From an uncultured Clostridia bacterium (GTDB lineage Bacteria > Bacillota > Clostridia > Oscillospirales > Ruminococcaceae), in assembly GCA_947631115.1 (NCBI GenBank), contig CANRKB010000012.1, positions 1 to 52,699 on the forward strand: DNA of 52,699 bases. Reading direction: 5' to 3'. The translations under genes were made by a program, and so were the position numbers. Of this stretch, positions 6,092 to 24,000 are shown piece after piece. The notes below the pieces were generated by a model, which saw nothing but the letters and a program-made list of their open reading frames with translations, was not told the DNA's origin and searched no databases. Numbering within the stretch: the first letter of the stretch is position 1; each line of letters opens with the position of its first letter.

Positions 6092-6127
6092 ATTTCTTAA
6101 AAGTCATATTTGATTTCTTAAAAGTCA
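6092..6127 (+). promoter_or_regulatory. Pair of LytTR-type direct repeats
   Basis: ATTTCTTAAAAGTCA occurs twice, at 6092-6106 and 6113-6127, 21 bp apart start to start (two helical turns). LytTR regulators such as AgrA, ComE and BlpR bind direct repeats with this spacing just upstream of the -35. The downstream copy ends 11 bp before the -35 hexamer, the usual activator position. Binding by the adjacent LytTR protein is inference. Confidence 0.7.
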
Positions 6128-6138
6128 AAACTGTCGTA

Positions 6139-6167
6139 TTGAAAAAAATAAAAAATTATGCTATAAT
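6139..6167 (+). promoter_or_regulatory. Promoter of the two-component/partner-switching operon
   Basis: TTGAAA at 6139-6144 and TATAAT at 6162-6167 with a 17-bp spacer, directly downstream of the LytTR-like repeats. The leader to the ATG at 6309 is about 135 nt. Confidence 0.7.
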
Positions 6168-6308
6168 AATCCCAAAATGGTTATTATATGCCTTTTTGGT
6201 ATCCGGAATAAAATGCGGACAATGTTTATACGAACATTATCCTGAAACGATATAAACGAATCACCTTTATTCTTCGGCAATTTACAGCCGAACTCAGGAG
6301 GAAAAGTT

Positions 6309-8487: not shown

Positions 8488-8784
8488 ATGACAATAACTA
8501 AAGATCAGAACGGTTCGGAGCTTGATATTGCTCTTGAGGGAAGACTCGACACGACTACCGCTCCTCAGCTCGAGGGCGAGCTGAAACACATTATAAACGA
8601 CATAACGGACCTGAGGTTTGATTTTGCGGGGCTTGAATATATTTCCTCGGCGGGGCTTCGCGTTTTGCTTGCGGCGCAGAAAGTCATGAACAAGCAGGGC
8701 AGTATGACGATAAAAAACGTAAACGATACGATAATGGAAGTGTTTGAGATAACGGGATTTGTGGATATTCTCAACATAGAATAA
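8488..8784 (+). CDS. STAS-domain anti-sigma factor antagonist (RsbV/SpoIIAA-like)
   Basis: A 98-residue single STAS domain. The conserved loop LEYISSAGLRVLL carries the serine that an RsbW-type kinase phosphorylates. When dephosphorylated by an RsbU-type phosphatase, such proteins bind the kinase/anti-sigma factor and release its client. The ATG at 8488 is chosen because GGAGG at 8478-8482 lies at ideal distance; a TTG 51 bp upstream in the same frame has no ribosome site. It lies 62 bp after the kinase gene and 21 bp before the phosphatase gene, so this is one operon. Confidence 0.92.
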   Translation: MTITKDQNGSELDIALEGRLDTTTAPQLEGELKHIINDITDLRFDFAGLEYISSAGLRVLLAAQKVMNKQGSMTIKNVNDTIMEVFEITGFVDILNIE

Positions 8785-8805
8785 GCGCTTAACGGAGATA
8801 TAAAC

Positions 8806-10431
8806 ATGAAGAAACGAAGATTTAATTTACAGCCAAAACTGCTGCTGGGTCTGGTTATTATGGCGGTAGTTCTGGTAGTCGCGCTTTTATCCGTAATAAT
8901 GATAATCTTCGGCGGCTTTATGTACACATATTATTCGTGGATAACCTACGACAACGCCTATATGTCCTCCTACGTCATTGACGGCGACCGTATCGCGCAG
9001 TATTATGAAAACGGAGAGGTCGGCGAGAAGGACGATTATTATAACGAGATTGCCGATTATCTTATGACCGTAAAAGACGAAGTGAGGTTTAAATATCTGT
9101 ATGTGGCAAAGCCCGAAGGCGATAACCTCGTTTACATATGGTATGCGGGCGACAGCGACGGGGAGAACCACAAGACGGGCGATATGGTCGAGCTGTCCGA
9201 CGGCGAAATGGAGTTTATGAAAAAGGCGGCGGACGTTAAAGGCGCGGCGATAGACGAAAACGTTCTTATAACTGAAAGCTTCGCCACGGCATACGTCCCC
9301 GTTTACGACAGCAACAATAACATCGCGGCTTATGTAAAGGCGAGTATGTCCACCGAAAGCATGAACCAGAACAGCGATGTTTTAGCGATAATTACGCTTA
9401 TAGTCACGCTCGTTATACTTATTATATCTTCGCTCATTTATTATATCTATATCAAGAAGATACTTGTCCGTCCGCTCTTTACGCTTCATAATGCCGTTAC
9501 GGGGCTTGTAAGCGGGCATATGGACAATCTCGAAGAATTTACCGTAGACGTTAAAACAAAAGACGAGGTCGGCGACCTTGCGGACGGCTTCGGGCAGATG
9601 GTAAAGGAGCTTAACGTTTACATAAACGATTTGAGCCGCGTTACAGCCGAAAGAGAGCGTATAGGCGCGGAGCTTGACGTCGCGACGCATATTCAGAAAT
9701 CAATGCTCCCTTGTATATTCCCCGCGTTTCCCGAGCGGAAGGAATTTGACATCTATGCGACAATGACACCCGCGAAAGAAGTCGGCGGCGATTTCTACGA
9801 TTTCTTTATGGTGGACGAAAGACACCTTGCGATAGTAATGGCGGACGTTTCGGGAAAGGGCGTTCCCGCGGCGTTGTTTATGGTGATAGGAAAAACGCTG
9901 ATAAAAGACCACACCCGCCCGGGAATAAGTCTCGGAGAGGTGTTCACCGAAGTAAACGACCTGCTTTGCGAGTCTAACAGCGAGGGATTGTTTATAACGG
10001 CGTTTGAGGGCGTTCTTGACCTTGCGACGGGCGAATTTAACTATGTAAACGCAGGACACGAAATGCCGTTTATCTGCCGAGCGGGAGAAAAATATGAAGC
10101 GCAGAAGATAAGAGCGGGCTTTGTCCTTGCGGGAATGGAGGGCATGAAATACCGCGCGGGAAGCATGACGCTTTCTGTCGGCGACAAAGTCTTTCAGTAT
10201 ACCGACGGAGTGACCGAAGCCACAAATGCCCAAAACGAATTATACGGAATGGAGCGGCTCGGAGAAGTGCTTAACAAAAACAAGGACAGCTCTCCCGCAG
10301 AGCTTCTGCCGAGGGTAAAAGAGGATATTGACTTGTTTGTGGGCGAAGCGCCGCAGTTTGACGATATAACAATGTTGTGCCTTGAATACAAGAGCAGAAT
10401 GGAGCTTAAAGATGAAAGAACTGACAATTGA
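8806..10431 (+). CDS. Membrane PP2C/SpoIIE-type phosphatase with HAMP (RsbU-like)
   Basis: A 541-residue protein. Membrane helix 1 covers about residues 12-38, an extracellular sensory region ~40-188 follows, helix 2 is ~191-213, HAMP ~219-266, and then a linker helix (ELDVATHIQKSMLP near 287) and a SpoIIE phosphatase domain. Metal and catalytic motifs are visible: GGDFYDFF near 325, MADVSGKGVPAALF near 345, and DDITMLCL near 519. The enzyme should dephosphorylate the STAS protein encoded upstream in response to an external signal. Start at 8806 follows an ACGGAGAT site. The last 20 bp overlap the ATP-binding protein gene. Confidence 0.93.
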   Translation: MKKRRFNLQPKLLLGLVIMAVVLVVALLSVIMIIFGGFMYTYYSWITYDNAYMSSYVIDGDRIAQYYENGEVGEKDDYYNEIADYLMTVKDEVRFKYLYVAKPEGDNLVYIWYAGDSDGENHKTGDMVELSDGEMEFMKKAADVKGAAIDENVLITESFATAYVPVYDSNNNIAAYVKASMSTESMNQNSDVLAIITLIVTLVILIISSLIYYIYIKKILVRPLFTLHNAVTGLVSGHMDNLEEFTVDVKTKDEVGDLADGFGQMVKELNVYINDLSRVTAERERIGAELDVATHIQKSMLPCIFPAFPERKEFDIYATMTPAKEVGGDFYDFFMVDERHLAIVMADVSGKGVPAALFMVIGKTLIKDHTRPGISLGEVFTEVNDLLCESNSEGLFITAFEGVLDLATGEFNYVNAGHEMPFICRAGEKYEAQKIRAGFVLAGMEGMKYRAGSMTLSVGDKVFQYTDGVTEATNAQNELYGMERLGEVLNKNKDSSPAELLPRVKEDIDLFVGEAPQFDDITMLCLEYKSRMELKDERTDN

Positions 10432-10819
10432 CGCGACAGTAGACAATATCCCCGTTGTCACGGATTTCGTAAACGAACAGCTCGAAGAACACGGCTGTTC
10501 GATAAAGTCGCAGATGCAGATAGATATAGCGATAGACGAGCTTTTCGGAAATATCGCTCACTATGCATATGAAAAAAATGTCGGTACTGCAACGGTGAGA
10601 GTGGAGCTTTCGGAGGAGCCGCTCTCGGTCGTTATCACGTTTATAGACAACGGCGTTCCTTATGACCCTCTTAAAAAAGCCGACCCCGACACCGCTCTTT
10701 CCGCAGAGGAAAGAGAAATAGGGGGACTTGGGATATACATGGTAAAAAAGAGCATGGACGGCGTTGAATACGAATACAAAGACGGACAGAATATTCTGAA
10801 AATAACAAAAAACTTATAA
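10412..10819 (+). CDS. RsbW-like serine kinase / anti-sigma factor (HATPase)
   Basis: A 135-residue ATP-binding protein of the RsbW/SpoIIAB group. Motifs: N box IDIAIDELFGNIAHYAY, G1 box IDNGVPYDP, and G2 box GGLGIYMVKK. It should phosphorylate the STAS protein and sequester a client when the antagonist is phosphorylated. The ATG at 10412 is preferred over an in-frame TTG at 10382 because GGAGC lies just upstream of it. No SigB/SigF-type sigma factor is adjacent; the only sigma gene in the window is an ECF type 7 kb downstream. The client may therefore lie elsewhere or not be a sigma factor. Confidence 0.9.
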   Translation: MKELTIDATVDNIPVVTDFVNEQLEEHGCSIKSQMQIDIAIDELFGNIAHYAYEKNVGTATVRVELSEEPLSVVITFIDNGVPYDPLKKADPDTALSAEEREIGGLGIYMVKKSMDGVEYEYKDGQNILKITKNL

Positions 10820-10940: not shown

Positions 10941-11092
10941 GTGTACGTATTGTTCACACATTATGTGCTTTTCGCAAAATGCTTCGGCGGATAATGCAAT
11001 GCATTTTGAGATTTTTATACAGACTGAAATCTATAAGATAAATTTTTTTATTTGCGGTAGAAAAATTGCCGCAGGAGGTGCAGTTTTATATT

Positions 11093-12535
11093 ATGGTTAC
11101 TTTTATTATTGGTCTTGTTGTTCTTCTGGTGGGAGGAGCGCTTTACGGAAAGGTCTGCGAAAAGGTCTTCAGACCCGACGACCGCGAAACGCCCGCTATC
11201 CGTATGAATGACGGAGTGGACTATGTTCCGATGAAGAAGTGGAAAAACTCGCTCATTCAGCTTTTGAACATAGCGGGAACAGGTCCTATCCTGGGTCCTA
11301 TCCAGGGCATACTTTTCGGGCCTATTGCGTTTATCACCATTCCCATAGGCTGTATAATCGGCGGAGCGTTCCACGACTATATGTGCGGAATGATCTCCGT
11401 CCGCGAGGACGGCGCGCAGATGCCTACGCTTATAAAAAAATACCTCGGAAAATATACATATCCCATTTACAATATCTTTGTATGCCTTCTTATGCTTCTG
11501 GTGGGAGCGGTCTTTATCTATACGCCCGGCGATCTGTTTGTATCGCAGATTCTTAAAGCCGACAGCGGCGTTACTAATCCCGTTTTGTGGATAGTATACG
11601 GAGTAATTTTTGTTTATTACATCGTGGCGACGCTTTTCCCGATAGACAAGATAATAGGAAAGGTTTACCCGATTTTCGGCGCGCTTCTTATTGTATCGGC
11701 AGTCGGCGTTTTTGCGGGACTTCTGATAAAAGGCTATCCGCTCGACGACATCTGGACAACGGGAGTTATCGGCGTTCACCCGAAGGGACTTCATTTTATC
11801 CCCGTGTTCTTTGTGACGGTTGCCTGCGGCATTGTTTCGGGATTTCATTCTACGCAGGCTACTCTTGTTTCGCGTACAATGAAAAGCGAAAAAGAGGGCA
11901 GAATGACCTTCTATAATATGATGCTGGCAGAGGGATTTATAGCCATGATATGGGCTGCCGCGGCAATGGGCGTTATAAACCTCGGTCTTGCAAATGCCGA
12001 TACAGGTACAACCGCCGTTGTAGGCATAATAGCAAACGACCTTCTCGGAAACATAGGCGGTATAATCGCGGTTATAGGCATAATCGTTCTTCCCATAACC
12101 TCGGGCGATACGGCGCTTCGCTCGCTGAGACTTATTATCTCCGACGCGCTGAAAATCGACCAGACGAAAAAGTCAAAGAGGCTTGCGGTATCTCTCGTTA
12201 TATTTGCGTTAGTAGCGGCGCTGCTGATTTTCGCAAAGATAAATTCCGACGGCTTCGAGGTGCTTTGGCGTTATTTCGCATGGGCAAACCAGACTATTGC
12301 GGTATTTGCGTTCGGCATGATAACAATGTACATGATAAAGAACAAAAAGCCGTTTATCATGGCGCTTATTCCGGGTATGTTCTATATGTTCATTATATCC
12401 AGCTTTATTTTGAATGCGCAGATAGGCTTCAATCTCCCGTGGGTAATAAGCTACTCCGTTGCGGGAGCGCTTACGGCGGCATACGGCGCGGCGCTTGTAA
12501 TATGCGGAATGAGAAGTATAAGGCAGAAAAATTAA
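11093..12535 (+). CDS. cstA: CstA-family carbon starvation carrier
   Basis: A 480-residue polytopic membrane protein of the CstA family, whose studied members import peptides or pyruvate. Typical CstA blocks are visible: the N-terminal MVTFIIGLVVLLVGGALYG helix, GTGPILGPIQG, GAFHDYMCGM, STQATLVSRT, and SGDTALRSLRL. About 12 hydrophobic segments follow. The length fits the shorter Gram-positive CstA type (E. coli CstA is about 700 residues). The ATG at 11093 matches the family start, although the GGAGG at 11074 is 14 bases away; an upstream TTG at 11066 is unlikely. Related carriers (BtsT) in E. coli are controlled by LytTR two-component systems, and one lies just upstream here. Confidence 0.93.
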   Translation: MVTFIIGLVVLLVGGALYGKVCEKVFRPDDRETPAIRMNDGVDYVPMKKWKNSLIQLLNIAGTGPILGPIQGILFGPIAFITIPIGCIIGGAFHDYMCGMISVREDGAQMPTLIKKYLGKYTYPIYNIFVCLLMLLVGAVFIYTPGDLFVSQILKADSGVTNPVLWIVYGVIFVYYIVATLFPIDKIIGKVYPIFGALLIVSAVGVFAGLLIKGYPLDDIWTTGVIGVHPKGLHFIPVFFVTVACGIVSGFHSTQATLVSRTMKSEKEGRMTFYNMMLAEGFIAMIWAAAAMGVINLGLANADTGTTAVVGIIANDLLGNIGGIIAVIGIIVLPITSGDTALRSLRLIISDALKIDQTKKSKRLAVSLVIFALVAALLIFAKINSDGFEVLWRYFAWANQTIAVFAFGMITMYMIKNKKPFIMALIPGMFYMFIISSFILNAQIGFNLPWVISYSVAGALTAAYGAALVICGMRSIRQKN

Positions 12536-12572: not shown

Positions 12573-13043
12573 ATGGCTTCTATTTTCAGAGAAAAAAGCA
12601 TGGAAAGGGTATCGTCTCCCGAACAGCTCAATGATTACATAAAGGTCACAAATCCCGGTATCTGGCTAACTCTCGCGGCGGTCGTTGTTCTGCTTATAGG
12701 CTTTATTGTCTGGGGAATTGTCGGAAAGCTTGAAACAAAGGTGAACACAGTTGTTGTTTCCGATACGGAAAAGACCGTCTGCTATGTAAAAGAAGCGGAC
12801 ATTGCGAAAATTGAAGCGGGCGACGCAGTCCGCATAGGCGAAAAAGAATACGCCGTAAAAGCCGTTCCCTCCGAACCCGTTTCGGCGGACGAGAGCTTTT
12901 CGGCATATGCAATGCATATAGGAAACTTTGCCGCGGGAGAATGGGTATATGCAGTAGAGCTTGATACCGCGCTGCAAAACGGCGTTTACGAAGCTAAGGT
13001 AATAACCGACAGCGTTTCTCCCATATCCTTTTTGTTTGAATGA
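12573..13043 (+). CDS. NHLM system secretion protein, short HlyD-like form
   Basis: A 156-residue protein beginning with FREKSMERVSSPEQLNDYIKVTNPGIWLTLAA, which is the hallmark start of NHLM bacteriocin-system membrane fusion proteins: a cytoplasmic segment, one membrane helix (about residues 31-52), then a small extracytoplasmic beta domain. Classical HlyD adaptors have about 400 residues with a long coiled-coil hairpin. Here the hairpin is absent, and the protein ends after the lipoyl/beta-barrel-like part. This fits a cell with no outer membrane. AGGAGG precedes the start, and its stop overlaps an ATG in the exporter frame. It probably assists the two ABC proteins downstream. Confidence 0.88.
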   Translation: MASIFREKSMERVSSPEQLNDYIKVTNPGIWLTLAAVVVLLIGFIVWGIVGKLETKVNTVVVSDTEKTVCYVKEADIAKIEAGDAVRIGEKEYAVKAVPSEPVSADESFSAYAMHIGNFAAGEWVYAVELDTALQNGVYEAKVITDSVSPISFLFE

Positions 13044-13051
13044 GGTGCGAG

Positions 13052-15235
13052 ATGTCCGCTAAGAAAATAAAACAGCCTGTAACGAACGGCGCGGCTAAAG
13101 TGCCTGTAGTTATGCAGATGGAAGCGCTCGAATGCGGAGCGGCTTCGCTTACGATGATACTTGCATATTACGGAAAGTGGATACCCTTAGAACAGGTGCG
13201 CGCGGACTGCGGCGTATCGCGCGACGGCTCGAGCGCAAAGAACGTTCTGAAAGCCGCTAGAAGCTACGGAATGACCGCAAAGGGCTATCGCTACGAACCC
13301 GAGCAGCTTAAAGAAAAGGGAAAGTTTCCCTGTATCATTCACTGGAATTTCAACCACTTTGTCGTTCTCTGCGGATTTAAAGGAAACAAGGCGGTATTAA
13401 ACGACCCCGCGAACGGGAATTATACCGTTTCAATGGACACTTTCGACAAGAGCTTTACGGGCATTTGCCTTATGTTTGAGCCGACAGAAAGTTTCAAGCC
13501 GGGCGGAAAGCCGAAAAGCGTCTTGTCGTTTGCCGCAAAGCGCCTTACGGGAGCAGGCTCGGCGGTGGCGTTCGTTGTACTGACGACCGTTATAACGTCT
13601 CTCATAGGAATTATCCAGCCCGCGTTTTCGAGGATATTCCTCGACAGGCTTCTGACAAAAGAAGACCCCGAATGGTTCTATCCTTTTCTGGGAATTTTAG
13701 CGGCGGTTTCTTTAGTACAGATAATCGTAGCTTTTGTTGAGGCAAGAACGAAGTTCAAGATAGAGGGAAAGCTCGCCGTTGTCGGCGACACTAATTTTAT
13801 CTGGAAGATATTAAGAATGCCCATGGAGTTTTTCTCCCAGCGTATGGCGGGCGATATACAGCAGCGCCAGGGAGCAAACTCCGAGATAGCGAAGAATTTT
13901 GTAAACACGTTCGCTCCGCTTGTATTAAACGCGGCTATGCTCATTTTCTACCTCGTGGTAATGATACAGTACAGCTGGTTTTTAACGCTTATAGGCGTGG
14001 CTTCGATAATGCTGAATTTAATTCTTTCGCACGTTATTTCCAAAAAGCGCGTGAACATAACGCGCGTTCAGATGCGCGACGAGGCGAAACTCGCGGGCTC
14101 TACCGTCGCGGGAATCGAGATGATAGAAACCATAAAGTCGAGCGGCGCGGAAAACGGCTATTATGAAAAATGGTCGGGGTATCAGGCAAGCGTAAATACC
14201 CAGCAGATAAAATTCGCAAAGCTCAACGAATATCTCGGAATGATACCGGGTCTTGTGACTCAGCTTACAAATACCGTAGTCCTTATCCTCGGCGTTTTCT
14301 TTACGATAAATGGACAGTTTACCGTCGGTATGGTTATGGCGTTTCAGGGATTTCTCGCGGCGTTTACCCAGCCCGCAATGACGCTTATAACCGCGGGCGA
14401 AACTATCCAGGAAATGCGCACACAAATGGAGCGCATTGAGGACGTTATGGAATATCCTACGGACGTGAATTATGAAAACGACGGCGGCATAAAGGAAGAC
14501 GCGGAATACGACAAGCTGTCGGGCGCGCTTGAAATGAAAAACGTTACTTTCGGATATTCTCGCCTCGGCGAACCGCTTATTGAAAACTTCAGCCTTTCGC
14601 TGAAGCCGGGAAGCCGTGTTGCATTCGTAGGCGGCTCGGGCTGCGGAAAATCCACGCTTTCAAAGCTTATTTCGGGATTATACCAACCCTGGAGCGGAGA
14701 GATACTCTTTGACGGAAAGCCGATGAAGGACATTGACAGAAGCGTCTTTACGGGTTCTCTCGCGGTAGTCGACCAAGACATAATCCTGTTTGAGGACACC
14801 ATTCGCAACAATATAAAGATGTGGGACTCTTCCATAGAAGATTTTGAAATGATACTTGCCGCAAAGGACGCGCAGCTCCACGAGGACATCATGAAGCGCG
14901 ACGGCGGCTACAGCTATATGATAACCGAGGGCGGAAAAGACTTCTCGGGCGGTCAGCGCCAGCGCATTGAAATTGCGAGAGTATTGGCGCAAGACCCTAC
15001 AATAATCATACTTGACGAAGCGACGAGCGCGCTTGACGCAAAGACGGAATACGACGTTGTGCGCTCGATAAAGGACAGAGGGATAACCTGCATTGTCGTT
15101 GCTCATAGATTATCGACCATACGCGACTGCGACGAAATTATAGTCATGGATCACGGAAAAGTCGTTGAGCGCGGAACTCATGAGGAATTATATGCAAAGA
15201 ACGGCTACTATACGCAGCTCGTTTCCAATGAATAA
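13052..15235 (+). CDS. NHLM peptide exporter: C39 peptidase-ABC transporter
   Basis: A 727-residue exporter that cleaves double-glycine leaders and pumps out the peptide. An N-terminal C39 domain (~residues 15-140) has C28 in MEALECGAAS, H102 in NFNHFVVL and D118 in NDPANG, the complete papain-like triad. Six membrane helices (~165-440) and an ATPase domain follow, with Walker A VGGSGCGKST, signature FSGGQRQR, and Walker B IIILDEAT. The length and the start match the NHLM exporter family. An ATG at 13040 overlapping the previous stop is possible, but GAGG at 13042-13045 sits correctly for 13052. Likely substrates are the five AGG-motif peptides encoded at 19633-20844. Confidence 0.95.
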   Translation: MSAKKIKQPVTNGAAKVPVVMQMEALECGAASLTMILAYYGKWIPLEQVRADCGVSRDGSSAKNVLKAARSYGMTAKGYRYEPEQLKEKGKFPCIIHWNFNHFVVLCGFKGNKAVLNDPANGNYTVSMDTFDKSFTGICLMFEPTESFKPGGKPKSVLSFAAKRLTGAGSAVAFVVLTTVITSLIGIIQPAFSRIFLDRLLTKEDPEWFYPFLGILAAVSLVQIIVAFVEARTKFKIEGKLAVVGDTNFIWKILRMPMEFFSQRMAGDIQQRQGANSEIAKNFVNTFAPLVLNAAMLIFYLVVMIQYSWFLTLIGVASIMLNLILSHVISKKRVNITRVQMRDEAKLAGSTVAGIEMIETIKSSGAENGYYEKWSGYQASVNTQQIKFAKLNEYLGMIPGLVTQLTNTVVLILGVFFTINGQFTVGMVMAFQGFLAAFTQPAMTLITAGETIQEMRTQMERIEDVMEYPTDVNYENDGGIKEDAEYDKLSGALEMKNVTFGYSRLGEPLIENFSLSLKPGSRVAFVGGSGCGKSTLSKLISGLYQPWSGEILFDGKPMKDIDRSVFTGSLAVVDQDIILFEDTIRNNIKMWDSSIEDFEMILAAKDAQLHEDIMKRDGGYSYMITEGGKDFSGGQRQRIEIARVLAQDPTIIILDEATSALDAKTEYDVVRSIKDRGITCIVVAHRLSTIRDCDEIIVMDHGKVVERGTHEELYAKNGYYTQLVSNE

Positions 15236-15248
15236 AGAAAGGGTATAT

Positions 15249-17462
15249 ATGGGCTGGTTTGACGAACAGATAAAACAGCGCAACGAGCATGACCAAAACA
15301 TTTTTGAAGAAGCGTTTCTGGGAATTTCCGACTCGGTCACGGGCGCGCGCGTTTCCGCCGCTCTCGGCGACGAGCAGAGCCGAGCAAAGGACGCCATAGA
15401 CGAGATATTAAGGTTTTATCATGTTAAAACGCGCGACGTTCCCGACGAAATAAAGGACATGAACGAGCGGCTCGAGTTTCTCATGCGCCCGCACGGAATA
15501 ATGAGAAGAACCGTAGAGCTTGAAAAAGGCTGGTATAAGGACGCAATGGGCGCAATGCTCGGCGTCAGAAAATCGGACGGAACGGTAGTTGCTCTTGTTC
15601 CGAAAGGATTTTCGGGGTATTCGTTCCTTGATATTGAAACGGGAAAGAGCGTCAGAGTTTCCAAAAAGAACGAGGATCTTTTTGAAAGAGAAGCCGTCGC
15701 TTTTTACAAGCCGTTTCCGCTGAAAAAGATGACGATAGGCTCGCTTATGAGATATATTGCCGAGATACTTTCTCCCGCGGATTATGCGCTTGCGGCGGTT
15801 GCTACGCTTATTGTAACGCTTATCGGAATGTTCGCTCCGAAATTAAATCAGCTTTTGTTCGGCGCGGTAGTGGAAAGCGGAGATCTGACATTGCTCGGCT
15901 CAATAGCGGTGTTCTTGCTATGCCTTACAATTTCGACGGCGCTTTTCGGCGCGGTAAAAAACCTCATAATCGCGAGGATAAGGACGAAAATGGACGTTAC
16001 AGTTCAGGCGGCGGCAATGGCGAGAGTTCTTTCGCTTCCTGCGGCGTTCTTTAAAGACTACAGTTCGGGCGACCTTTATACAAGAACGCAGTATATAAAT
16101 ATGCTCTGCACGATGATAGTCGACACCGTTTTATCCACGGGACTTTCTTCGGTGTTCTCGCTTATTTACATAACGCAGATATTCGACTTTGCGCCCGCGC
16201 TGGTCGTTCCCGCGCTGGTTGTTGTGGCGATAACGATTGTTGTTTCGTTTATTACGGCGCTGGCGCAGATGAAAGTTTCAAAAAAAAGGCTTGAACTTTG
16301 CGCAAAGGAAAGCGGCATGAGCTATTCGCTCATTACGGGCGTTCAGAAAATAAAGCTTTCGGGCGCGGAAAAACGCGCTTTCGCGAGATGGGGAAAGCTA
16401 TATGCCGAACAGTCGAAAGTCACCTATAACCCTCCCGCAATAATCAAATACAACAAGGTCATAACGACCTTTATAACCCTTGCGGGAACGTTTGCTATGT
16501 ATTATCTTGCTGTTTCGAGCGGCGTTTCGGTCGCGGATTATTATGCGTTCAACACCGCATACGGTCTTGTTTCGGGAGCGTTTGTGGCTCTCGCGGACAT
16601 TGCTCTGACTGCCGCGAACATAAAGCCCGTTCTTGATCTTTCAAAGCCTATTTTAGAGGCAGTTCCCGAAGTTTCCGAGGGCAAGCAGGTCATAACGCGT
16701 CTTTCGGGCGGAATAGAGCTTAACAACGTTTCCTTCCGCTATAACGAAAATATGCCGAACGTTGTGGACGACTTGTCGCTGAAGATACGTCCCGGGCAGT
16801 ATGTGGCGATTGTAGGCACGACGGGCTGCGGAAAATCCACGCTCATGCGGCTTATGCTGGGATTTGAAACGCCGCAGAAAGGCGCGATTTATTACGACGG
16901 AAAGGACATAGCGGGCATTGACCTGAAATCCCTCAGGCGCAGAATAGGAACTGTCATGCAGAACGGAAAGCTCTTTCAGGGCGACATCTTTTCAAACATA
17001 ACCATTTCCGCGCCGTGGCTAACTTTAGACGACGCATGGGAGGCGGCGGAGCTTTCGGGCATAGCCGAGGACATACGCCGTATGCCTATGGGCATGAACA
17101 CCCTCATTTCCGAGGGAAGCGGCGGAGTTTCGGGCGGTCAGCGCCAGCGCCTTATGATAGCGAGAGCTATTGCGCCGAAGCCGAAGATACTTATGTTTGA
17201 CGAAGCTACAAGCGCTCTCGACAACATCACCCAGAAAACCGTTTCACAGTCGCTCGACAGGCTTAAATGCACGAGAATTGTCATAGCGCACAGGCTCTCT
17301 ACCATTAAACAGTGCGACAGGATAATATATCTCGAAAAAGGGAAAATTGTCGAGGATGGTTCTTATAATGAACTGATTGAAAAAAACGGCAAGTTCGCGG
17401 AGCTTGTCGCGCGCCAGCGTCTTGACGATACGGAATATGTGGGACAGACGACTGCCTTCTGA
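15249..17462 (+). CDS. NHLM system ABC transporter, ATP-binding/permease without C39 domain
   Basis: A 737-residue protein starting MGWFDEQIKQRNEHDQ, the diagnostic start of the second NHLM ABC protein. About 230 residues of family-specific N-terminal domain come before six membrane helices (~205-490) and an ATPase domain with Walker A VGTTGCGKST, signature VSGGQRQR and Walker B ILMFDEATSALD. It has no peptidase domain. The ATG at 15249 has GAAAGGG at good distance and lies 13 bp after the previous stop; upstream in-frame codons lie inside the previous gene and are rejected. With the C39 exporter it probably forms a heteromeric or sequential export machine. Confidence 0.94.
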   Translation: MGWFDEQIKQRNEHDQNIFEEAFLGISDSVTGARVSAALGDEQSRAKDAIDEILRFYHVKTRDVPDEIKDMNERLEFLMRPHGIMRRTVELEKGWYKDAMGAMLGVRKSDGTVVALVPKGFSGYSFLDIETGKSVRVSKKNEDLFEREAVAFYKPFPLKKMTIGSLMRYIAEILSPADYALAAVATLIVTLIGMFAPKLNQLLFGAVVESGDLTLLGSIAVFLLCLTISTALFGAVKNLIIARIRTKMDVTVQAAAMARVLSLPAAFFKDYSSGDLYTRTQYINMLCTMIVDTVLSTGLSSVFSLIYITQIFDFAPALVVPALVVVAITIVVSFITALAQMKVSKKRLELCAKESGMSYSLITGVQKIKLSGAEKRAFARWGKLYAEQSKVTYNPPAIIKYNKVITTFITLAGTFAMYYLAVSSGVSVADYYAFNTAYGLVSGAFVALADIALTAANIKPVLDLSKPILEAVPEVSEGKQVITRLSGGIELNNVSFRYNENMPNVVDDLSLKIRPGQYVAIVGTTGCGKSTLMRLMLGFETPQKGAIYYDGKDIAGIDLKSLRRRIGTVMQNGKLFQGDIFSNITISAPWLTLDDAWEAAELSGIAEDIRRMPMGMNTLISEGSGGVSGGQRQRLMIARAIAPKPKILMFDEATSALDNITQKTVSQSLDRLKCTRIVIAHRLSTIKQCDRIIYLEKGKIVEDGSYNELIEKNGKFAELVARQRLDDTEYVGQTTAF

Positions 17463-17571
17463 AAAATTTTTCTACAGCTTCTAACAAAAAAGAATTTTCC
17501 CCGTATAAATAAGTGAAACGCAAGATAAAGAACAGTTGCCTTTAAAACAGGCTCTGCCGTTTGGAGTAAAT

Positions 17572-17751
17572 ATGGATAAGAACGAAGATATTATTCGCAG
17601 GCTGTTTGACTTTCAGCGTTTCGCCTCAAACAAGCGCCTCGATAAAATAATAGCCGACTGCGAAGACGGCGGCGTTCTGCTTGAGGACAGCGAGCTTGAT
17701 ATAAACGCCGCAGGTGAAACGGACATAAGAAAGAGCGATCCGAAGAAATGA
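17572..17751 (+). CDS. 59-aa protein with an AGG-like tail motif, coupled to the ECF sigma gene
   Basis: A small acidic soluble protein. Residues ~5-35 form a helix-prone segment (IIRRLFDFQRFASNKRL), and residues ~38-50 read LLEDSELDINAAGE. That block resembles the end of Nif11-like leaders (LSDDELEAVAGG), although the final Gly-Gly is degenerate. The ATG at 17572 has GGAG five bases upstream; an in-frame TTG at 17536 has no such site. Its stop overlaps the sigma factor ATG by four bases, so translation is coupled. Possible roles: a precursor-like peptide, a leader mimic, or a small regulator of the sigma factor. The function is not known. Confidence 0.75.
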   Translation: MDKNEDIIRRLFDFQRFASNKRLDKIIADCEDGGVLLEDSELDINAAGETDIRKSDPKK

Positions 17752-18245
17752 AGATAACTCCCGAAGAACTCTATAATGCCTACCGCGAAAAGGTCGAGCG
17801 CTACATATGTTCTCATGTCAAAAACGAACACGACCGCGCGGATATTGTACAGCAGGTGTTTTTAAACGCCATATCTGCTTTGGAAAGCTACGACCCCGAA
17901 CGCGCCGCCGTAAGCACCTGGCTCTATGCCATAACGCGAAACGCCGTCATTGACTACTACAGAAGCCTAGAAAAAGAGCCGCTTTCGGCGGATAACGATG
18001 AACTTCGGCTTTTATCGCAGGAGGAAAAACCGCTTTCCGAGGAAACGCTCGAAGCCCTCGCAGACGCTCTCGAACAGCTCCCCGAACGCGAGCGTAAGAT
18101 AATCGTGCTTCGGTTTTACGGCGGTTATTCCGCGAAAGAGACCGCTGAAAAGATAGGACTTAGTTATGCGAACGTCCGTTTTCTGCAATATACTGCCCTT
18201 AAAAAGCTGAGAAAGCTTTTGGAAAAGACGGGGCTTTTTGAATGA
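17748..18245 (+). CDS. ECF-type RNA polymerase sigma factor
   Basis: A 165-residue sigma-70 family protein with only regions 2 and 4. Region 2 spans about residues 8-75 (HDRADIVQQVFLNAISAL, then STWLYAITRNAVIDYYR). Region 4 spans ~105-160 (LPERERKIIVLRFYGGYSAKETAEKIGLSYANVRF). Sigma genes of this sort are common inside NHLM peptide clusters. No classical membrane anti-sigma gene lies next to it; the 59-aa coupled protein is the only candidate partner. It likely drives the peptide or export genes, but I could not identify a convincing ECF promoter upstream of them. Confidence 0.93.
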   Translation: MKITPEELYNAYREKVERYICSHVKNEHDRADIVQQVFLNAISALESYDPERAAVSTWLYAITRNAVIDYYRSLEKEPLSADNDELRLLSQEEKPLSEETLEALADALEQLPERERKIIVLRFYGGYSAKETAEKIGLSYANVRFLQYTALKKLRKLLEKTGLFE

Positions 18246-18268
18246 AACTTTTGAAAGGATAACCTCAT

Positions 18269-19534
18269 ATGAAAAACAACCCCTCCGGAATATCGGGCTT
18301 TTATCGCTCTACAGACAACTGCCGCCACACTGTCAGAATAGCTGTAAAACTTATTGACGCGGTAGATGAAAAGGCGCTGAGAAAAGCCGTGGACATTGCG
18401 ATAAAACGTTATGATTATTTTTCGGTGAAATTTGTTTTGAAAGACGAGCTTTTACATTCGGTCGTTCCGAATAATGAGCCTATCGTTATTACACACGGCT
18501 CCGAGCCCGTTACGCTTCTTTCCGAAGAATCGAACTTTCATGCTCTCGCCGTAAACTATTTCGGAGATACGGTATATTTCGACATGATACATTCCATAAC
18601 CGACGCTACGGGAATTATGGAGCTTATAAAAACAACGCTCTATTATTACATAACCGAAGAATATAAGACCTCTCTCCCCGCCGACAATATCCGCACGGCA
18701 GAAACGCCCGTTTCTGACGAGGAGAGAAGAGATCCTTATCTTGATATTAAAACCCCCGAGGAACAGCAGGACAATGCGAAAAAGCCCGATATGCCCTCTG
18801 CGGTTACATGGGATAGGATAATGGATATAGACACAGGCAGGCAGACCGTTTTTGAAATAGAGTTTTCGGAAGCGGAGTTTGTGGACTATTGCAAGAAAAA
18901 CGGCGCTACCCCCGCAATTATGCTCGCAAATATGTTCGCGAAAGCAACGTTCGGGATATGCGAAAAATTAGACGCGCCGTTCAGAATAGTGCTTATGAAA
19001 AACTACCGCGCGTTTTTGAAAAAGCCCCTTGCGCATAACAACATCACGGGCGTTATCGCATTAAATTACACAGACGAAATGCGCGAATTAACTCCCGAAA
19101 AGCTGAACGGCGTCTGCCGTCAGATGGCGGCTTATCAGTCGACCGACGAATATATGCAAAGCGCGTTGCAAAGGAAACTTTACAACGAAAGGAAGATACT
19201 TGCCCTCGGCGATCTCGAAAAGATACGCGAGGCTTTCAGAGCAGCGTCTAAGGAGAATTTAAGGCAGGTAAACCTTACTTTAAGCTATGTAAGAATGAAC
19301 ACCCTCGGCGCTCTTGAGCCTTATATAAAGTCGGTGAGAACATACGTTGACCCGTCGGGAAGTCATGTAATTGCAGAAGTGAATGCGGTGAACGGAAAGT
19401 TCTTTATGAATATTATGCAGGATTTTGCGGGGAACTCGCTCTCCGAGGCGTTTATAAAAGAGCTTAAAGCCGCGGGAATTGAAGTTTCGGGCGGCGCGGA
19501 GCAGGATCTTGCATGCCCGAAAATGAGAATATAA
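18269..19534 (+). CDS. Condensation-like acyltransferase
   Basis: A 421-residue soluble protein of the CoA-dependent acyltransferase fold (condensation domain, alcohol acetyltransferase, PapA-like). The active-site motif HxxxD is seen as DMIHSITDATG near residue 110; the usual second His and the final Gly are changed, but the catalytic His and Asp remain. The second half contains the paired-domain landmarks (FRIVLMKNYRAFLKKPLAHNNITG and a late YVDPSGSHVIAEVNAVNG). AAAGGATAACC precedes the ATG. It sits between the sigma factor and the peptide genes and is the only enzyme-like gene of the island, so acylation of an exported peptide is possible but unproven. Confidence 0.78.
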   Translation: MKNNPSGISGFYRSTDNCRHTVRIAVKLIDAVDEKALRKAVDIAIKRYDYFSVKFVLKDELLHSVVPNNEPIVITHGSEPVTLLSEESNFHALAVNYFGDTVYFDMIHSITDATGIMELIKTTLYYYITEEYKTSLPADNIRTAETPVSDEERRDPYLDIKTPEEQQDNAKKPDMPSAVTWDRIMDIDTGRQTVFEIEFSEAEFVDYCKKNGATPAIMLANMFAKATFGICEKLDAPFRIVLMKNYRAFLKKPLAHNNITGVIALNYTDEMRELTPEKLNGVCRQMAAYQSTDEYMQSALQRKLYNERKILALGDLEKIREAFRAASKENLRQVNLTLSYVRMNTLGALEPYIKSVRTYVDPSGSHVIAEVNAVNGKFFMNIMQDFAGNSLSEAFIKELKAAGIEVSGGAEQDLACPKMRI

Positions 19535-19632
19535 AAACAAGCTGTATCAATAAACAGATTTTTGGCTGTATAACTTAAATGTATGAAACCACGCAGGTGC
19601 GTTTCAAATAAATTTTAAAAGGAGAAGTTGCT

Positions 19633-19857
19633 ATGGAAGAATTTGTAAACAAGGTCAAGGACGCGAAGTCGGTAGACGAAATAAAGGCTATCGCAAAAGA
19701 ATGTGGGCTGGAGCTTGCTGACGACAAGGCTGAGGAGTTGTTTAAAATGATAAGCAACCAGACCGGCGAGCTTTCCGACGACGAGCTTGAAGCAGTAGCG
19801 GGCGGCGGAATAGTTGACACGATAAAGCATTGGGTAGGCAGCTTATTCGGCAGATAA
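19633..19857 (+). CDS. Nif11-like leader peptide precursor 1
   Basis: A 74-residue precursor. Residues 1-58 are a Nif11/NHLP-type leader (MEEFVNKVKDAKSVDEI..., then GELSDDELEAVAGG), ending in a double-glycine cleavage site for the C39 exporter. The predicted mature peptide is GIVDTIKHWVGSLFGR (16 residues), weakly cationic, with hydrophobic residues spaced as in an amphipathic helix. The core has no Cys and almost no Ser/Thr for lanthionine chemistry. AGGAG lies just upstream. The leader differs more from the other three than they do from each other. A hairpin (about 19585-19606) precedes the ribosome site. Confidence 0.92.
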   Translation: MEEFVNKVKDAKSVDEIKAIAKECGLELADDKAEELFKMISNQTGELSDDELEAVAGGGIVDTIKHWVGSLFGR

Positions 19858-19927
19858 TAGGCTCACATCGGCATGGTCTGCTTCGGACGGCACATATCCG
19901 AAGCAGACCCCCAAAAGCGGAGGTATT

Positions 19928-20089
19928 ATGGACAAGGACGAGTTGAATAAAAACGGCGAACTTTCTGATGAAGAACTTGATAAAGTCGCGGGCGGCGAGG
20001 AATACGGGGTCGTTATAAGCCGCGAAGAGATCGTGGGCAGTTTTTTAGAAGCCATGGAGCAGTACCGCAAGGACCACCCCAAGGATTAA
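19928..20089 (+). CDS. Precursor 2: leader reduced to the AGG cleavage motif
   Basis: A 53-residue gene that is easily missed. It starts MDKDELNKNGELSDEELDKVAGG, so only the last part of the leader, with the cleavage motif, remains; the helical Nif11 part (~35 residues) is missing. The predicted released part is 30 residues beginning EEYGVVISREEIVGS, acidic, amphipathic and different from the other cores. AGGT and a GGAGG-like GCGGAGG lie just upstream of the ATG at 19928. Either this is a deletion derivative of the tandem family that is still translated, or a peptide that is not exported. It has no stop or frameshift, so it is not an obvious pseudogene. Confidence 0.8.
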   Translation: MDKDELNKNGELSDEELDKVAGGEEYGVVISREEIVGSFLEAMEQYRKDHPKD

Positions 20090-20106
20090 ACAAGGAGCCC
20101 GAACAG

Positions 20107-20337
20107 ATGAACAAAGAAGAATTTATAGCAAAGCTCAAAGAAGCAAAGTCCGTAGAGGACGTTCTCGCTCTTGCAAAGGAAAGCGGAATTGAACTTGACG
20201 AGGAAAAGGCAAAAGAACTTTTCGCCGAGCTTAACGCAAGCGGCGAGATTTCCGACGATGATCTTGACAAGGTCGCAGGCGGATATGAGCTTGGTCCAAA
20301 TATGCGGCAGTATTTAGATTGGGTATTCAAACAATAA
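20107..20337 (+). CDS. Nif11-like leader peptide precursor 3
   Basis: A 76-residue precursor. The 59-residue leader (MNKEEFIAKLKEAKSVEDV..., then GEISDDDLDKVAGG) is nearly identical to those of precursors 4 and 5. The predicted core is YELGPNMRQYLDWVFKQ (17 residues), near neutral, aromatic-rich and without Cys. AAGGAGC precedes the ATG at 20107. It lies 17 bp after precursor 2 and 17 bp before the start of precursor 4. Sharp leader conservation with core divergence is the pattern expected of a peptide family under selection for diversity. Confidence 0.93.
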   Translation: MNKEEFIAKLKEAKSVEDVLALAKESGIELDEEKAKELFAELNASGEISDDDLDKVAGGYELGPNMRQYLDWVFKQ

Positions 20338-20354
20338 CAAAGGAGCTTAAACAT

Positions 20355-20576
20355 ATGAACAAAGAAGAATTTATTGCAAAGCTCAAAGAAGCAAAGTCCG
20401 CAGATGAAATTCTTGCTCTTGCGAAAGAAAACGGAATTGAACTTAGTGAAGATAAGGCTAAAGAGCTTTTTAGTCAGCTTAACGCAAGCGGCGAGCTTTC
20501 GGACGACGACCTCGAAAAAGTCGCGGGCGGGAACATTTTTGACAAATTTCTCGAATTTTTCGGCGGCTTCTTTTAA
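20355..20576 (+). CDS. Nif11-like leader peptide precursor 4
   Basis: A 73-residue precursor with a 59-residue leader ending DDDLEKVAGG. The predicted core NIFDKFLEFFGGFF (14 residues) has five Phe plus a Leu and an Ile, and resembles a short membrane-active helix. The ATG at 20355 is chosen because AAAGGAGC lies directly upstream; an in-frame ATG at 20319 is inside precursor 3. The ribosome-site region (AAAGGAGCTTAAACATATG) is repeated exactly before precursor 5, showing a recent tandem duplication. Confidence 0.93.
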   Translation: MNKEEFIAKLKEAKSADEILALAKENGIELSEDKAKELFSQLNASGELSDDDLEKVAGGNIFDKFLEFFGGFF

Positions 20577-20613
20577 AGAGCCGAGTATCATCTCATGAAA
20601 GGAGCTTAAACAT

Positions 20614-20844
20614 ATGAACAAAGAAGAACTTATAGCAAAGCTCAAAGAAGCAAAGTCCGCAGAGGACGTTCTCGCTCTTGCAAAAGAAAACGGAATTGAG
20701 CTTGACGAGGAAAAGGCAAAGGAGCTTTTCGCCGAGCTAAACGCAAGCGGCGAACTTTCCGACGACGACCTCGACAAAGTCGCGGGCGGAAATATTTTCG
20801 ATAAAACAAGAAAAGTTCTCAGCGAAATTATGAAAAATATGTAA
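20614..20844 (+). CDS. Nif11-like leader peptide precursor 5
   Basis: A 76-residue precursor with a 59-residue leader ending DDDLDKVAGG. The predicted core NIFDKTRKVLSEIMKNM (17 residues) starts with the same NIFDK as precursor 4 and then diverges; it is cationic and amphipathic, without Cys. AAAGGAGC lies upstream of the ATG. It is the last gene of the peptide array; a separate promoter for the nucleotidase gene begins 17 bp later. C39 cleavage after AGG is expected from the family rule, not shown here. Confidence 0.93.
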   Translation: MNKEELIAKLKEAKSAEDVLALAKENGIELDEEKAKELFAELNASGELSDDDLDKVAGGNIFDKTRKVLSEIMKNM

Positions 20845-20889: not shown

Positions 20890-21000
20890 GCAATTGTAAA
20901 TTCGATGTAAGGTGGTGAGGCAGGCAGTAGTTTCCTTTGCAGGGAAAATGCACGTTTTTAATTTCAACGCGCGAATTTCATCATGAAAAAAGGAGAAAGT

Positions 21001-24000
21001 ATGAAACTGAAAGAAAAAGTATTGTCGATGCTGGTGTCCGTGGCAATGGTCTTTTCATTGCTTCCTGCGGGGGCATTCGCGGCTGATACCGAAACGGTCA
21101 CTATTTTTACGACAAACGACATTCACGGCGTTGTCGCTGCTGACGACAAAGACGAAGGATCCATAGGTATGGCGCAGGCTGCCGCAATGAAAGCGTCGAC
21201 AACAAACTCGCTTCTGGTAGACGCGGGCGACGCAGTGCAGGGAGCGTCCTTTGCGACAATTTCACAGGGCGAGGACGTTATAAAGATGATGAACGCCGCG
21301 GGCTATGACGTTATGGCGGCGGGAAACCATGAGTTCGATTTCGGAACGGATCAGCTCAAAAAGCTTGAAGCAACGGCGGAGTTCCCGATACTGAGCGCAA
21401 ACGTAATGAAAGACGGGGCGACGCTTCTTGAAAGCAGCGCGGTCATAGAAGCGGGCGGCAAGAAGATAGGCTTTGTCGGCATAACCACAAAGAACACCGC
21501 GACTTCTACAAACCCCGCGAAACTCACGGGCGTTACTTTCGGCGACGAGATACAAGCGGCGAAAGACGAGATAGCGAAGCTTAAAGATAAGACCGACGCT
21601 ATCGTTCTTATCACCCACCTCGGCGACAGCGAGGCTGCAGTAAGCTGCACGAGCAAAGATCTGCTCAACGGTCTTTCGGAAGACGAGCTTAAAGAAATAA
21701 CGGCAGTGATCGACGGTCACAGCCACACCGTAGAACAAAATACATATACAAAAAACGGCGTTTCTATCCCCGTTGTTCAGACAGGAACGCAGTTTACGAG
21801 CATCGGAATGGTTGAAATTACCTTTGGCGCAAACAGCGCTTCCGCTGCTTGCAAGGTACTCAACAAGGCTGAGGCAGACGAATATTCCCTCAATGAAAAC
21901 GGCACAGCAAAGAAAGCCGAAGTAGAAAATGTGCTTAATGGTATACAGTCCGAGCAGAAGAAAATTCTCGACGAGAAACTTTGCGTAAACGACATTCCTC
22001 TCTGGGGCGATTATATCTGCTGGGACTATGCGGAGTCGCGTATTGTTGAAACGGCGTACGGCGATTTCGTTACCGACGCTTTCGCAGAATATGCAAGAGA
22101 ATTTGCAGAGAACAACGGAATTGACCTTCCCGTTATTGCCGTTGAAAACGGCGGCGGCATAGGTCAGACGCTCCCCGCGGGAACAGTAACGCGCGGCGAC
22201 GTTCTGAATGCCTTTAACCACGGAAATATGGTAGAGGTATACGAAGTTACTCCCCAAATGCTCCGCAAGGCTCTTGAAATTGGTCTTAAAATGACAGGAC
22301 AGGACGAAACGGGTATGCTCGTAAGAAAAAGCGTAAGCGGCAGCTTTTTACAGGCGGGCGGCTTTAGCTATTCATATGATCCCGCAGGAGCGACAGGCGA
22401 AAAGGTCGTAGACATAACGCTTGCTGACGGAACGAAGCTCGACCTCAATGACAACGAGACAAAGCTCCTTCTTGCAACAAACAACTATGTCGGCACATTT
22501 AACGGCATTAAAGACGGAACAAAGGTCGGCGAGCTTGGCGGCGAAGACCAGATAGTTATGGACTACATTCTGGCTAACCTGAAAAGCGGCAGGCTCAATT
22601 ATGAGATTACCGAGCCTCGCATAATCATAGCAAACGACCAATCTCCCGAGACATATACTGTTACTATCCCCGTACAGCTTGAAGACAAAACTGCTATTCC
22701 CGATACCGATTTTATGATAAGCATTGACGGCGAGGAAGGCATTACGGTAACGACAAATGAAAACGGCGAGATAGTTCTCGAGCTTGAAAAAGGCGCGCAC
22801 ACTATCTGGCTCAAGGAGGCAAAAAACGTTAATAAGCCTGTTTATGTAAACAACTATTCCGGCTCGGGCACCGTTACGACCAGAGAGGGCTATTATACAT
22901 TCGGCTTTACCGCTCTCAGCATAGAAGAGTACAGAGCGGAAGTTGCTCAGCAAATAGAGGACTATGCTGCGAGAAACATAAGCGATATAAACGAATATCT
23001 TACTTATTGCAAGGAAGATGTAGCAGAGCTGGCAATAACCCGTACGGAGTATCTCAGAGATTTCGCTTTAGAAAAGCTTGCTGATTATAATACTTATGAG
23101 GAAATAGGCGAGCTTTATGATGAGTTTGTAGACGGCGCAGAAATAATGTACGAAGTAGCGGCTTTGAATGACACAGTTGAATATTACAAAGCCGAAACCG
23201 AGGATCATGTAAAAGATGGTACTCTGACAAGGGAAGAAGCGGACGCATTGATAAAGAAGCTTGAGGGTATCGAGCGCGACGCATTGGAAAATATCAAAAA
23301 TTTACCGGCGGAAGGAATCATTGACAAATCTTTTGAAATACTTGACGCGGCGTTTGATGATATAGACAAAGCCCTTGTTGAGGCAAACAAGGACATAGTT
23401 AAAGACCAGGCTGCGGAGTATAAGGACTATTTCCAAAAAGCCGTAGACGACAACCCCGAGTGGTTTGAGTATGCGCCCGAGGGCAAGGTTGATGAAGTTC
23501 TGAATGACATAATCACAAAGCTCGACGATTTGCTCAAAGAGTATGAAACTTCGACGAATCTTGATGAACAGATAAAACTGTATGACGATACCATAAACGG
23601 TATACTTAGCGAATGGGCAGAACTCAACACGCTTTGTGCAAAGGCAAGAATCTCCGAGGTCACACAGAATGTAACCGACATAATTAAAGAAGCCGAAGAG
23701 ATAGACGGCAAGGACCGCAGCGACATGAAGGCAGCTATTGAAGCCCTCAAAGCCGAAGCGGAAAAGACTGTAGACGCTCTTGATGATGAGGATACGGTAG
23801 TAAAGGGCAATATTGCGGTTGAGGTCATGGACGCGTATATCGAAGTAGTGGATAATTTCAGAACTGATGTTTCCGCAGAATACCTCGAAGCATTTCTTGT
23901 TGGAGTAGAAAAGCAGTATGCAGAGGATATCGATAACTTTACAATGCTCACCGATGAAGAAAGAGCCCAGTATAAGAAAGATGTCAAAGAAGCGATAAAG

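Follow-up and report, generated by a model that had tools for sequence, protein, structure and literature searches.

The window analysed here is a stretch of 52,699 nucleotides that makes up the entire contig C12 of an uncultured Clostridia genome, which is 96% complete. It carries an island with an exporter of the NHLM type that includes a C39 peptidase, a sigma factor of the extracytoplasmic function (ECF) class and five genes for Nif11-type precursor peptides (p1 to p5), and the coordinates and gene order given for this island in the initial annotation are correct. Two further components had been overlooked: a set of genes for a STAS protein, a SpoIIE phosphatase and an RsbW-like protein (8488-10819) upstream of the exporter, and an open reading frame (ORF) of 59 amino acids, ORF59, between the second transporter gene and the sigma gene (Table 1). 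That the island has no modification enzyme is correct, yet common among its relatives; the more unusual content is the pair of ORF59 and the ECF sigma factor with a promoter-like element, the Rsb partner switch, and the co-loss that ties both to the peptides. Searches of open-licence literature for unmodified Nif11 peptides, and for Nif11 combined with STAS, SpoIIE, RsbW or sigma factors, returned no paper whose title or abstract covers this combination.

Related loci were collected with a profile of the short HlyD-like protein of the exporter, which returned 463 confirmed stretches in named genomes. The 86 loci used below are the best 80 of these, five from the same genus and that of the window. 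The best 80 belong to uncultured Clostridia, Lachnospiraceae, Oscillospiraceae and others, and many are from rabbit-gut ('Lapin') assemblies. Three loci (L076, L077 and L078) are the same as those of the genus genomes G009, G002 and G005, respectively, and are not independent of them. Precursors in the relatives were counted by regular expression, and Pfam was run on 10 proteins from five of these loci (L079, L082, L084, L081 and L132) and on one radical SAM protein of L088.

The exporter and the precursors

Both ABC proteins pass the cut-offs of their NHLM families. The HlyD-like protein fails its own, TIGR03794 (38.9 bits against 156.2), with 51 of the 421 profile positions matched, so the exporter can be called complete, as it was initially, only if this conserved short form is counted as its third component. 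Residues 7-152 of ABC1 match the LahT150 entry 6mpz (E 1.4e-72). LahT150 is reported to have cut all seven tested Nif11-leader substrates of its cluster, which have very different cores, and also a synthetic 17-mer carrying only 13 leader residues (PMC6363468). The p2 precursor, which retains only the final 23 residues of the leader, would on this ground be expected to pass too. Two relatives of p2 with full leaders are found in locus L075.

The Nif11 leader model TIGR03798 (cut-off 32.3 bits) is passed by p3 and p4; p1 falls just short at 31.0 bits, p2 is well below, and p5 was scanned with Pfam only. The Pfam leader model PF07862 stays under its cut-off in all three precursor genes that match it. 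When p5 was used as a query against the whole genome, exactly p1 to p5 were recovered and nothing further at E <= 10, and therefore the family of precursors is more than chance. The cores of p1 to p5 have 16, 30, 17, 14 and 17 residues, Cys is absent from all five, and those of p3 and p4 also have no Ser or Thr.

Four of these cores (p1, p3, p4 and p5) had been described as Cys-free amphipathic helices of 14-17 residues. Length and composition are as stated; the amphipathicity is clear for p4 (p = 0.001) and p5 (p = 0.006) only, when scored against composition shuffles with p values uncorrected across 17 cores. The p2 core is not amphipathic either (p = 0.76).

The p1 protein is invariant over its 74 residues in four genomes of four species, any two of which differ in the gene by 3-12 synonymous changes and not one nonsynonymous change; eight other genes compared beside it have ratios of nonsynonymous to synonymous change (pN/pS) of 0.025-0.29. 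Further away, the p1 core becomes GIVDTIKKWVGGLFGR in L075, GIIDTVKEWFGSLFGK in L079 and L082, and GLVDCIKEMIGSLFGY, which contains Cys, in L084; recognisable p1 cores are also held by L081 and L083. A p4-like core, DIIDKLVEFFGGFFK, is found in L079 and p5-related cores in G002, G005, G009 and L075. The number of precursors is five in the window, seven in G005 and three each in G002 and G009, and the repertoire differs in sequence too: in one G002 precursor Gly-Glu replaces Gly-Gly, and one in G009 is a frame-broken relative of p2. The best reading of this pattern is that p1 would be the fixed component of the system and the other peptides a changing repertoire.

Table 1. Features of the peptide island and its upstream switch (window positions)
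Feature	Position	Strand	Evidence or remark
STAS anti-anti-sigma protein (RsbV-like), 98 amino acids	8488..8784	+	71% identity to exporter-adjacent STAS ORF of L103
HAMP and SpoIIE/PP2C phosphatase (RsbU-like)	8806..10431	+	PF07228 152.7 bits
RsbW-like HATPase_c_2 protein, 135 amino acids from ATG	10412..10819	+	PF13581 75.7 bits; TTG start at 10382 also open
Short HlyD-like membrane fusion protein, 156 amino acids	12573..13043	+	TIGR03794, N-terminal 51 positions; conserved short form
NHLM ABC1, C39 peptidase-permease-ATPase	13040..15235	+	TIGR03796 944.7 bits (cut-off 853.3); Peptidase_C39 122.8 bits
NHLM ABC2, permease-ATPase	15249..17462	+	TIGR03797 726.4 bits (cut-off 709.4)
ECF-type promoter-like element, TAACA-N15-CGTATAAA	17482..17509	+	Pattern counts against shuffles
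ORF59, leader-like motif ending Ala-Ala-Gly	17572..17751	+	Alignment of 20; overlaps sigma start
ECF sigma factor	17748..18245	+	TIGR02937 115.2 bits; Sigma70_r2/r4
Condensation-like protein (condL), resident neighbour	18269..19534	+	Intact in peptide-less genomes
Palindrome TGAAACCACGCAGGTGCGTTTCA upstream of p1	19584..19606	+	Single copy per genome in 6 of 43 genus genomes
p1 precursor, core GIVDTIKHWVGSLFGR	19633..19857	+	Protein identical in four genomes
p2, 23-residue leader remnant and 30-residue core	19928..20089	+	TIGR03798 14.9 bits, below cut-off
p3 precursor, core YELGPNMRQYLDWVFKQ	20107..20337	+	TIGR03798 36.7 bits
p4 precursor, core NIFDKFLEFFGGFF	20355..20576	+	TIGR03798 39.8 bits
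p5 precursor, core NIFDKTRKVLSEIMKNM	20614..20844	+	PF07862 23.2 bits (cut-off 23.8)

Modification enzymes in the genome and in related loci

A ribosomally synthesised and post-translationally modified peptide (RiPP) needs an enzyme that modifies its precursor; none was found in the island, and none that would suit these precursors among the known maturases of the whole genome, which agrees with the initial statement that no core-modifying enzyme is recognisable. LANC_like was found in none of the seven genomes searched, the window's included, and YcaO in none of four. The genome has 19 radical SAM matches, all of which were scanned with NCBIfam. Thirteen reach non-maturase families (MiaB, HemW, MtaB, RimO, RlmN twice, ThiH, NrdG, YgiQ, BioB, MnmL/YtqA, TIGR03960 and TIGR04100), one is a SCIFF maturase (684 bits against a cut-off of 425) and is the sole known peptide maturase among them, and five (L196, L198, two in L199, and L204) are below every curated cut-off.

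These five proteins leave room for the cores to be modified by the product of a gene outside the island, such as one of the unassigned radical SAM proteins, in which case the products would be ordinary RiPPs; as the genome is 96% complete, a modification gene could also have gone undetected. We consider modification of the cores rather unlikely. Besides the absence of LANC_like and YcaO, the SCIFF maturase acts on a Cys-rich peptide and the cores have no Cys, with Ser and Thr also missing from p3 and p4, and no enzyme candidate accompanies the locus in the window, L076, L077 or L078.

In the relatives, enzymes were called from CxxxCxxC motifs in ORFs of at least 250 amino acids, from gene clusters judged by eye and from likeness to one LanM. 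Radical SAM or LanM candidates were identified in 18 of the 86 loci; L121, whose CxxxCxxC ORF is on the opposite strand, is not among the 18, and one of its flanks is too short for it to count among the 47 well-flanked loci, those that extend 4 kb or more to both sides. Twelve of these 47 have an enzyme candidate, a point in favour of modified cores, and 35 have no radical SAM or LanM candidate. An enzyme-poor layout, first thought to be unusual, is therefore common. At least one double-glycine (GG) precursor is present in 28 of the 35, and in 16 of these 28 all detected cores are Cys-free. Of the total of 143 detected precursors, 111 are in loci with no enzyme and 32 in loci with one; 80 of the former and 13 of the latter are Cys-free.

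It is usual to class Nif11 precursors with the RiPPs, and genome mining searches for the maturase. As this exporter subtype is found in many Clostridia and mostly has no radical SAM or LanM candidate as a neighbour, such loci may be overlooked as sources of unmodified peptides.

L090, L092, L097 and L098 carry long, Cys-rich cores (G[KE]YTD...YLIVSPFYGC...) and share the promoter-like element described below, and L090, L097 and L098 have an apparent B12-type radical SAM gene, as judged by eye. In L069 (G015 contig C3), a LanM gene (TIGR03897, 463 bits) with four precursors of a different leader type occupies positions 1952-6203, near a second NHLM cassette with precursors of the window's type; the two peptide systems seem to be neighbours.

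Co-loss in the genus and the local regulators

Sister species provide natural losses of the system. Orthologues of condL, the condensation-like gene between the sigma gene and p1, were found at 87-96% identity in G001, G002, G005, G009, G040 and G042, besides the window, and as a fragment in G008. Among these, NHLM ABC1 is over the cut-off in G002, G005 and G009 and not in G001, G008, G040 or G042. The gene order cstA-condL-nuc5 is seen in G001, G040 and G042, and the G008 contig stops within condL. In G001, G040 and G042 the STAS gene, the phosphatase, the exporter, ORF59, the sigma gene and the precursors are missing or survive as traces, and what is left of RsbW, if anything, is truncated or has a broken frame. 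The genes interleaved with them in the window were retained: the LytTR/GHKL pair (6309-8425), CstA (11066-12535), condL, and nuc5 (20983-24984), which encodes a 5'-nucleotidase-like protein of 1333 amino acids. Three separate blocks (the Rsb genes, the exporter with ORF59 and sigma, and the precursors) were thus lost or decayed, while the intervening and surrounding genes stayed.

Remnants argue for loss rather than original absence. The final 45 bp of the sigma gene lie ahead of condL in G040 and 65 bp in G001; 329 bp of RsbW, with a broken frame, remain in G040 and 231 bp in G042. The phosphatase is absent from the exporter-losing genomes or left as a 38-bp trace, and G042 has traces of both STAS and phosphatase. 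The palindrome upstream of p1 persists after condL in G040 and, with one mismatch, in G008, both of which are peptide-less. A role for this palindrome as a genus-wide operator was considered and rejected, as all copies are at this locus.

In a tree, the unit-bearing L075 is placed beside G001 (82) and apart from G040 and G042 (72), which suggests at least two losses; ultrafast bootstrap support is modest, at 70-82 on the side of the losers and 33-58 on that of the keepers, where the order is not resolved, and L075 is represented by two of the five genes. From the co-loss and the conserved neighbourhood, the functional unit would comprise the Rsb partner switch, the exporter, the ORF59-ECF sigma pair and the precursors, the Rsb genes being counted in because they were lost together with the peptides. 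Co-loss in sister species outlines this unit without an experiment, and the whole set can be tested as one.

The initial annotation named condL, as a condensation-like acyltransferase, the only enzyme-like neighbour. It could be imagined to acylate the cores, giving lipopeptides: it starts 23 bp after the sigma gene and precedes the precursors, neighbours the cassette in 8 of the 86 loci, and has an H108-x3-D112-x2-G115 motif that is invariant in 10 sequences and that we take to resemble the HHxxxDG-like motif of condensation domains and acetyltransferases. It has no Pfam condensation match, and its match to a condensation-domain chain among PDB sequences is weak (E 0.24). We regard acylation as very improbable. 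In genomes without peptides condL is intact and under similar constraint (mean pN/pS 0.179 in losers and 0.144 in keepers), and a gene that outlives the peptides in sister species is unlikely to be their maturase. All eight of its loci also have CstA and seven have nuc5, so that condL behaves as a member of this resident block, and it was not seen in L079, where cores similar to those of p1 and p4 are among the nine precursors detected. On these grounds we rejected it as a tailoring enzyme, and it is probably a bystander outside the peptide unit. In L081 (16654-17865; the cluster is also found in L083 and L091), the slot after the sigma gene that is equivalent to that of condL is occupied by a 403-residue protein with a C-terminal STAS domain.

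An ORF59-type ORF is located directly upstream of the sigma gene in 23 of 25 loci with the sigma factor and ends within a few to 34 nucleotides of the sigma start. An alignment of 20 sequences, made without the near-duplicates L083, L097 and L119, has L11, Q15, F17, L23, L37, D39 and A46-A47-G48 in common, and ORF59 of the window has no match in Pfam or NCBIfam. Of 245 genomes drawn evenly from the order, six have it; in the five other than the window's it always adjoins ABC2, and in four of them the sigma gene follows. In a draw of 398 genomes from the phylum it was found in the window's own genome alone. ORF59 is probably the cognate anti-sigma factor.

The promoter-like pattern, [TA]AACA-N15/16-CGTAT[AC]AA, was derived from the regions upstream of ORF59 before it was counted in 81 loci (1.31 Mb) and 30 block shuffles of them. 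It has 28 matches in 23 of the 81 loci, compared with a shuffle mean of 0.4 and a maximum of 2, and all 28 are on the cassette strand, with none on the opposite strand and none for the reversed pattern. Because of its derivation, the matches before ORF59 are partly by construction; this does not apply to those before precursors or to the strand bias. The gene that follows is of the ORF59 family in 17 cases and a GG precursor in eight (the L086 element at 8914 included), and in single cases a precursor-like gene with a GA motif (L091), a degenerate ORF59 (L132) and an ambiguous gene (L088). Four loci carry the element twice, before ORF59 and before a GG precursor, and it is directly ahead of ORF59 in 15 of the 23 ORF59-sigma loci. 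Within the genus, it is at the cassette in all four unit-bearing genomes and missing from G001, G008, G040 and G042. A genome-wide regulon was rejected: the TAACA form has 15 matches in the 43 genus genomes, four of them at cassettes, and the reversed control has 18, so that outside the cassettes the element is at chance.

The best reading is that the ECF sigma factor would recognise this element. The island of the window has a single copy, before ORF59, and short gaps after the sigma gene (the 23 bp to condL, and 98 bp from condL to p1), from which we infer read-through to the precursors.

The tail of ORF59 resembles a double-glycine leader with Ala in place of Gly, with weak statistical support; as a homologue of the leaders it was not accepted, the profile comparison giving a probability of 20% (E 0.0011) over 11 columns. 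A doubtful extension is that ORF59 acts as a decoy leader, one that cannot be cleaved, through which the load of the exporter would be reported to the ECF sigma factor and so to transcription. The C39 domain would dock ORF59, which has Ala-Ala-Gly in all 20 aligned sequences, without cutting it; with the exporter occupied by precursors, free ORF59 would hold the sigma factor, and an idle exporter would sequester ORF59 and set the sigma factor free. The ORF59-sigma pair and its element offer a sharp and cheap test of the link between a peptide exporter and its switch.

The Rsb genes have a conserved place as well. Within 9 kb upstream of the exporter and on its strand, STAS, phosphatase and RsbW genes are found in 39, 30 and 37 of 56 loci, with all three in 28; downstream, the counts are 6, 13 and 4 of 54. 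Upstream of the cassette in L079 (3745-6349) is a fusion of a MATE transporter with an RsbW-like HATPase_c_2 domain, and after it a protein with a formyl-transferase domain.

Predicted function of the peptides

Read from gene content, family membership, conservation, co-loss and the promoter-like element, the locus most likely encodes secreted peptides that stay unmodified, resemble class II bacteriocins, belong to a local ECF regulon with an Rsb input and have a membrane-active role in competition, a reading to which we give a probability of about 60%. The five precursors would be translated with a Nif11-type leader ending in double glycine, where the C39 domain of ABC1 would cleave, and ABC1, ABC2 and the short HlyD would export linear, unmodified cores of 14-17 residues (30 for p2). 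The ECF sigma factor would drive its own ORF59-sigma operon from the element and, in the same direction, the precursors downstream, and the switch of STAS protein, SpoIIE phosphatase and RsbW would feed a signal of cell state into the regulon. The cores would then most likely serve as membrane-active antibacterial peptides resembling class II bacteriocins. A role in competition agrees with the losses on more than one occasion, the varying repertoire and the amphipathicity of p4 and p5; a signal would agree with the conservation of p1 and with the fact that no immunity gene was recognised. Between killing and signalling, we weight competition about three times as heavily.

Several observations weigh against this interpretation, in addition to the unassigned radical SAM proteins and the enzyme-bearing loci. 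For p1, the most conserved core, amphipathicity is not significant (p = 0.21), and for p3 it is marginal (0.058). Compared with the fifth genome, L075, p1 has 93% identity and 6.5-7.5 nonsynonymous differences. The p1-type leaders of L081, L083 and L082 are frame-broken. The element is missing before ORF59 in 8 of the 23 loci (L068, L069, L086, L091, L117, L126, L135 and L145), of which L068 and L069 are both genus relatives. None of the named genes was recognised as an immunity gene, in an analysis that ran no immunity models. As to the three broken leaders, each stands out of frame before an intact core, by decay or assembly error, and L081 resembles L083.

The conservation of p1 could also mean that it is a pheromone that leaves through the C39 transporter and is detected by the upstream pair of GHKL kinase and LytTR regulator, with the other peptides as outputs, as in the Com, Blp and Pln systems. 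GG-leader pheromones are short and unmodified, p1 is invariant in four species, and the kinase has an RHD..RHH box. LytTR and GHKL genes are also biased to the upstream side, each in 22 of 61 loci, with one (LytTR) and none (GHKL) of 57 downstream. We hold this to be possible, though unlikely. Three genomes that have neither peptides nor exporter retain the two-component pair under purifying selection, together with the CstA block: the mean pN/pS of losers and keepers is 0.155 and 0.128 for the kinase, 0.133 and 0.080 for the regulator, and 0.071 and 0.077 for CstA, and these three genes and condL are free of stops in both groups. L090, L092, L097, L098, L102 and L132 have related kinases although no core of the p1 type was seen in them, and identity in the sensor domain fails to split p1-bearing from p1-less loci, which together with the retention of the pair weakens it as the cognate sensor of p1. 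The proposal that an intact p1 always accompanies the pair was dropped, as L082 has the pair and a broken p1 leader.

Action on the animal host, with the peptides as modulins in the gut, would be in keeping with the many related loci from rabbit-gut assemblies and with the two amphipathic cores. We give it little credence, as the turnover of the cores and the repeated losses suit bacterial competition at least equally. Phenol-soluble modulins, to which the cores had been likened, are short, Cys-free and amphipathic, which is matched by two of the four named cores, but they are leaderless, and the precursors here carry leaders and are accompanied by a peptidase-containing exporter; the likeness is therefore a loose analogy.

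Double-glycine class II bacteriocins are a further parallel: they have a GG leader, a C39 ABC exporter and an unmodified core, all as proposed here; the leader and the exporter are both present at this locus. A preview article reports that unmodified bacteriocins of the double-glycine type are abundant in the genomes of gut bacteria, among them Clostridia (PMC12648078). In contrast to these, the locus has a long Nif11-type leader, paired NHLM ABC proteins, very short cores and no recognised immunity gene. Short cores as such are not new, as a 14-residue core has already been listed for Desulfitobacterium hafniense (PMC4289311).

Three transporter families are common to the locus and to the N11P/NHLP systems of Haft, Basu and Mitchell, for which the conservation of the leader was argued, in 2010, to reflect the exporter and not a particular maturase (PMC2887384). 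Here, the cores are short, hydrophobic and Cys-free, the HlyD protein is short and there are extra regulators. The Lah cluster of Lachnospiraceae bacterium C6A11 resembles the locus in having nine Nif11-type precursors (LahA1-9) with diverse cores and one C39 exporter, LahT (PMC6363468). It differs from the locus, where no modification enzymes were found and the ECF/ORF59 and Rsb genes are added. The lah cluster also has modification enzymes. Among lantibiotics, the microbisporicin and planosporicin clusters are reportedly under their own ECF sigma factor and anti-sigma factor; those are actinobacterial and modified, whereas ORF59 is small, has a leader-like motif and stands beside an Rsb switch.

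Among the neighbouring genes, nuc5 appears to encode a secreted 5'-nucleotidase/metallophosphoesterase with a PETG-type C-terminus, and its cluster neighbours 12 of the 86 loci. Elsewhere in the window, a repeat protein with a PETG-type C-terminus (35523-37448) and a protein with MORN-like repeats (30463-31209) were both recognised by eye.

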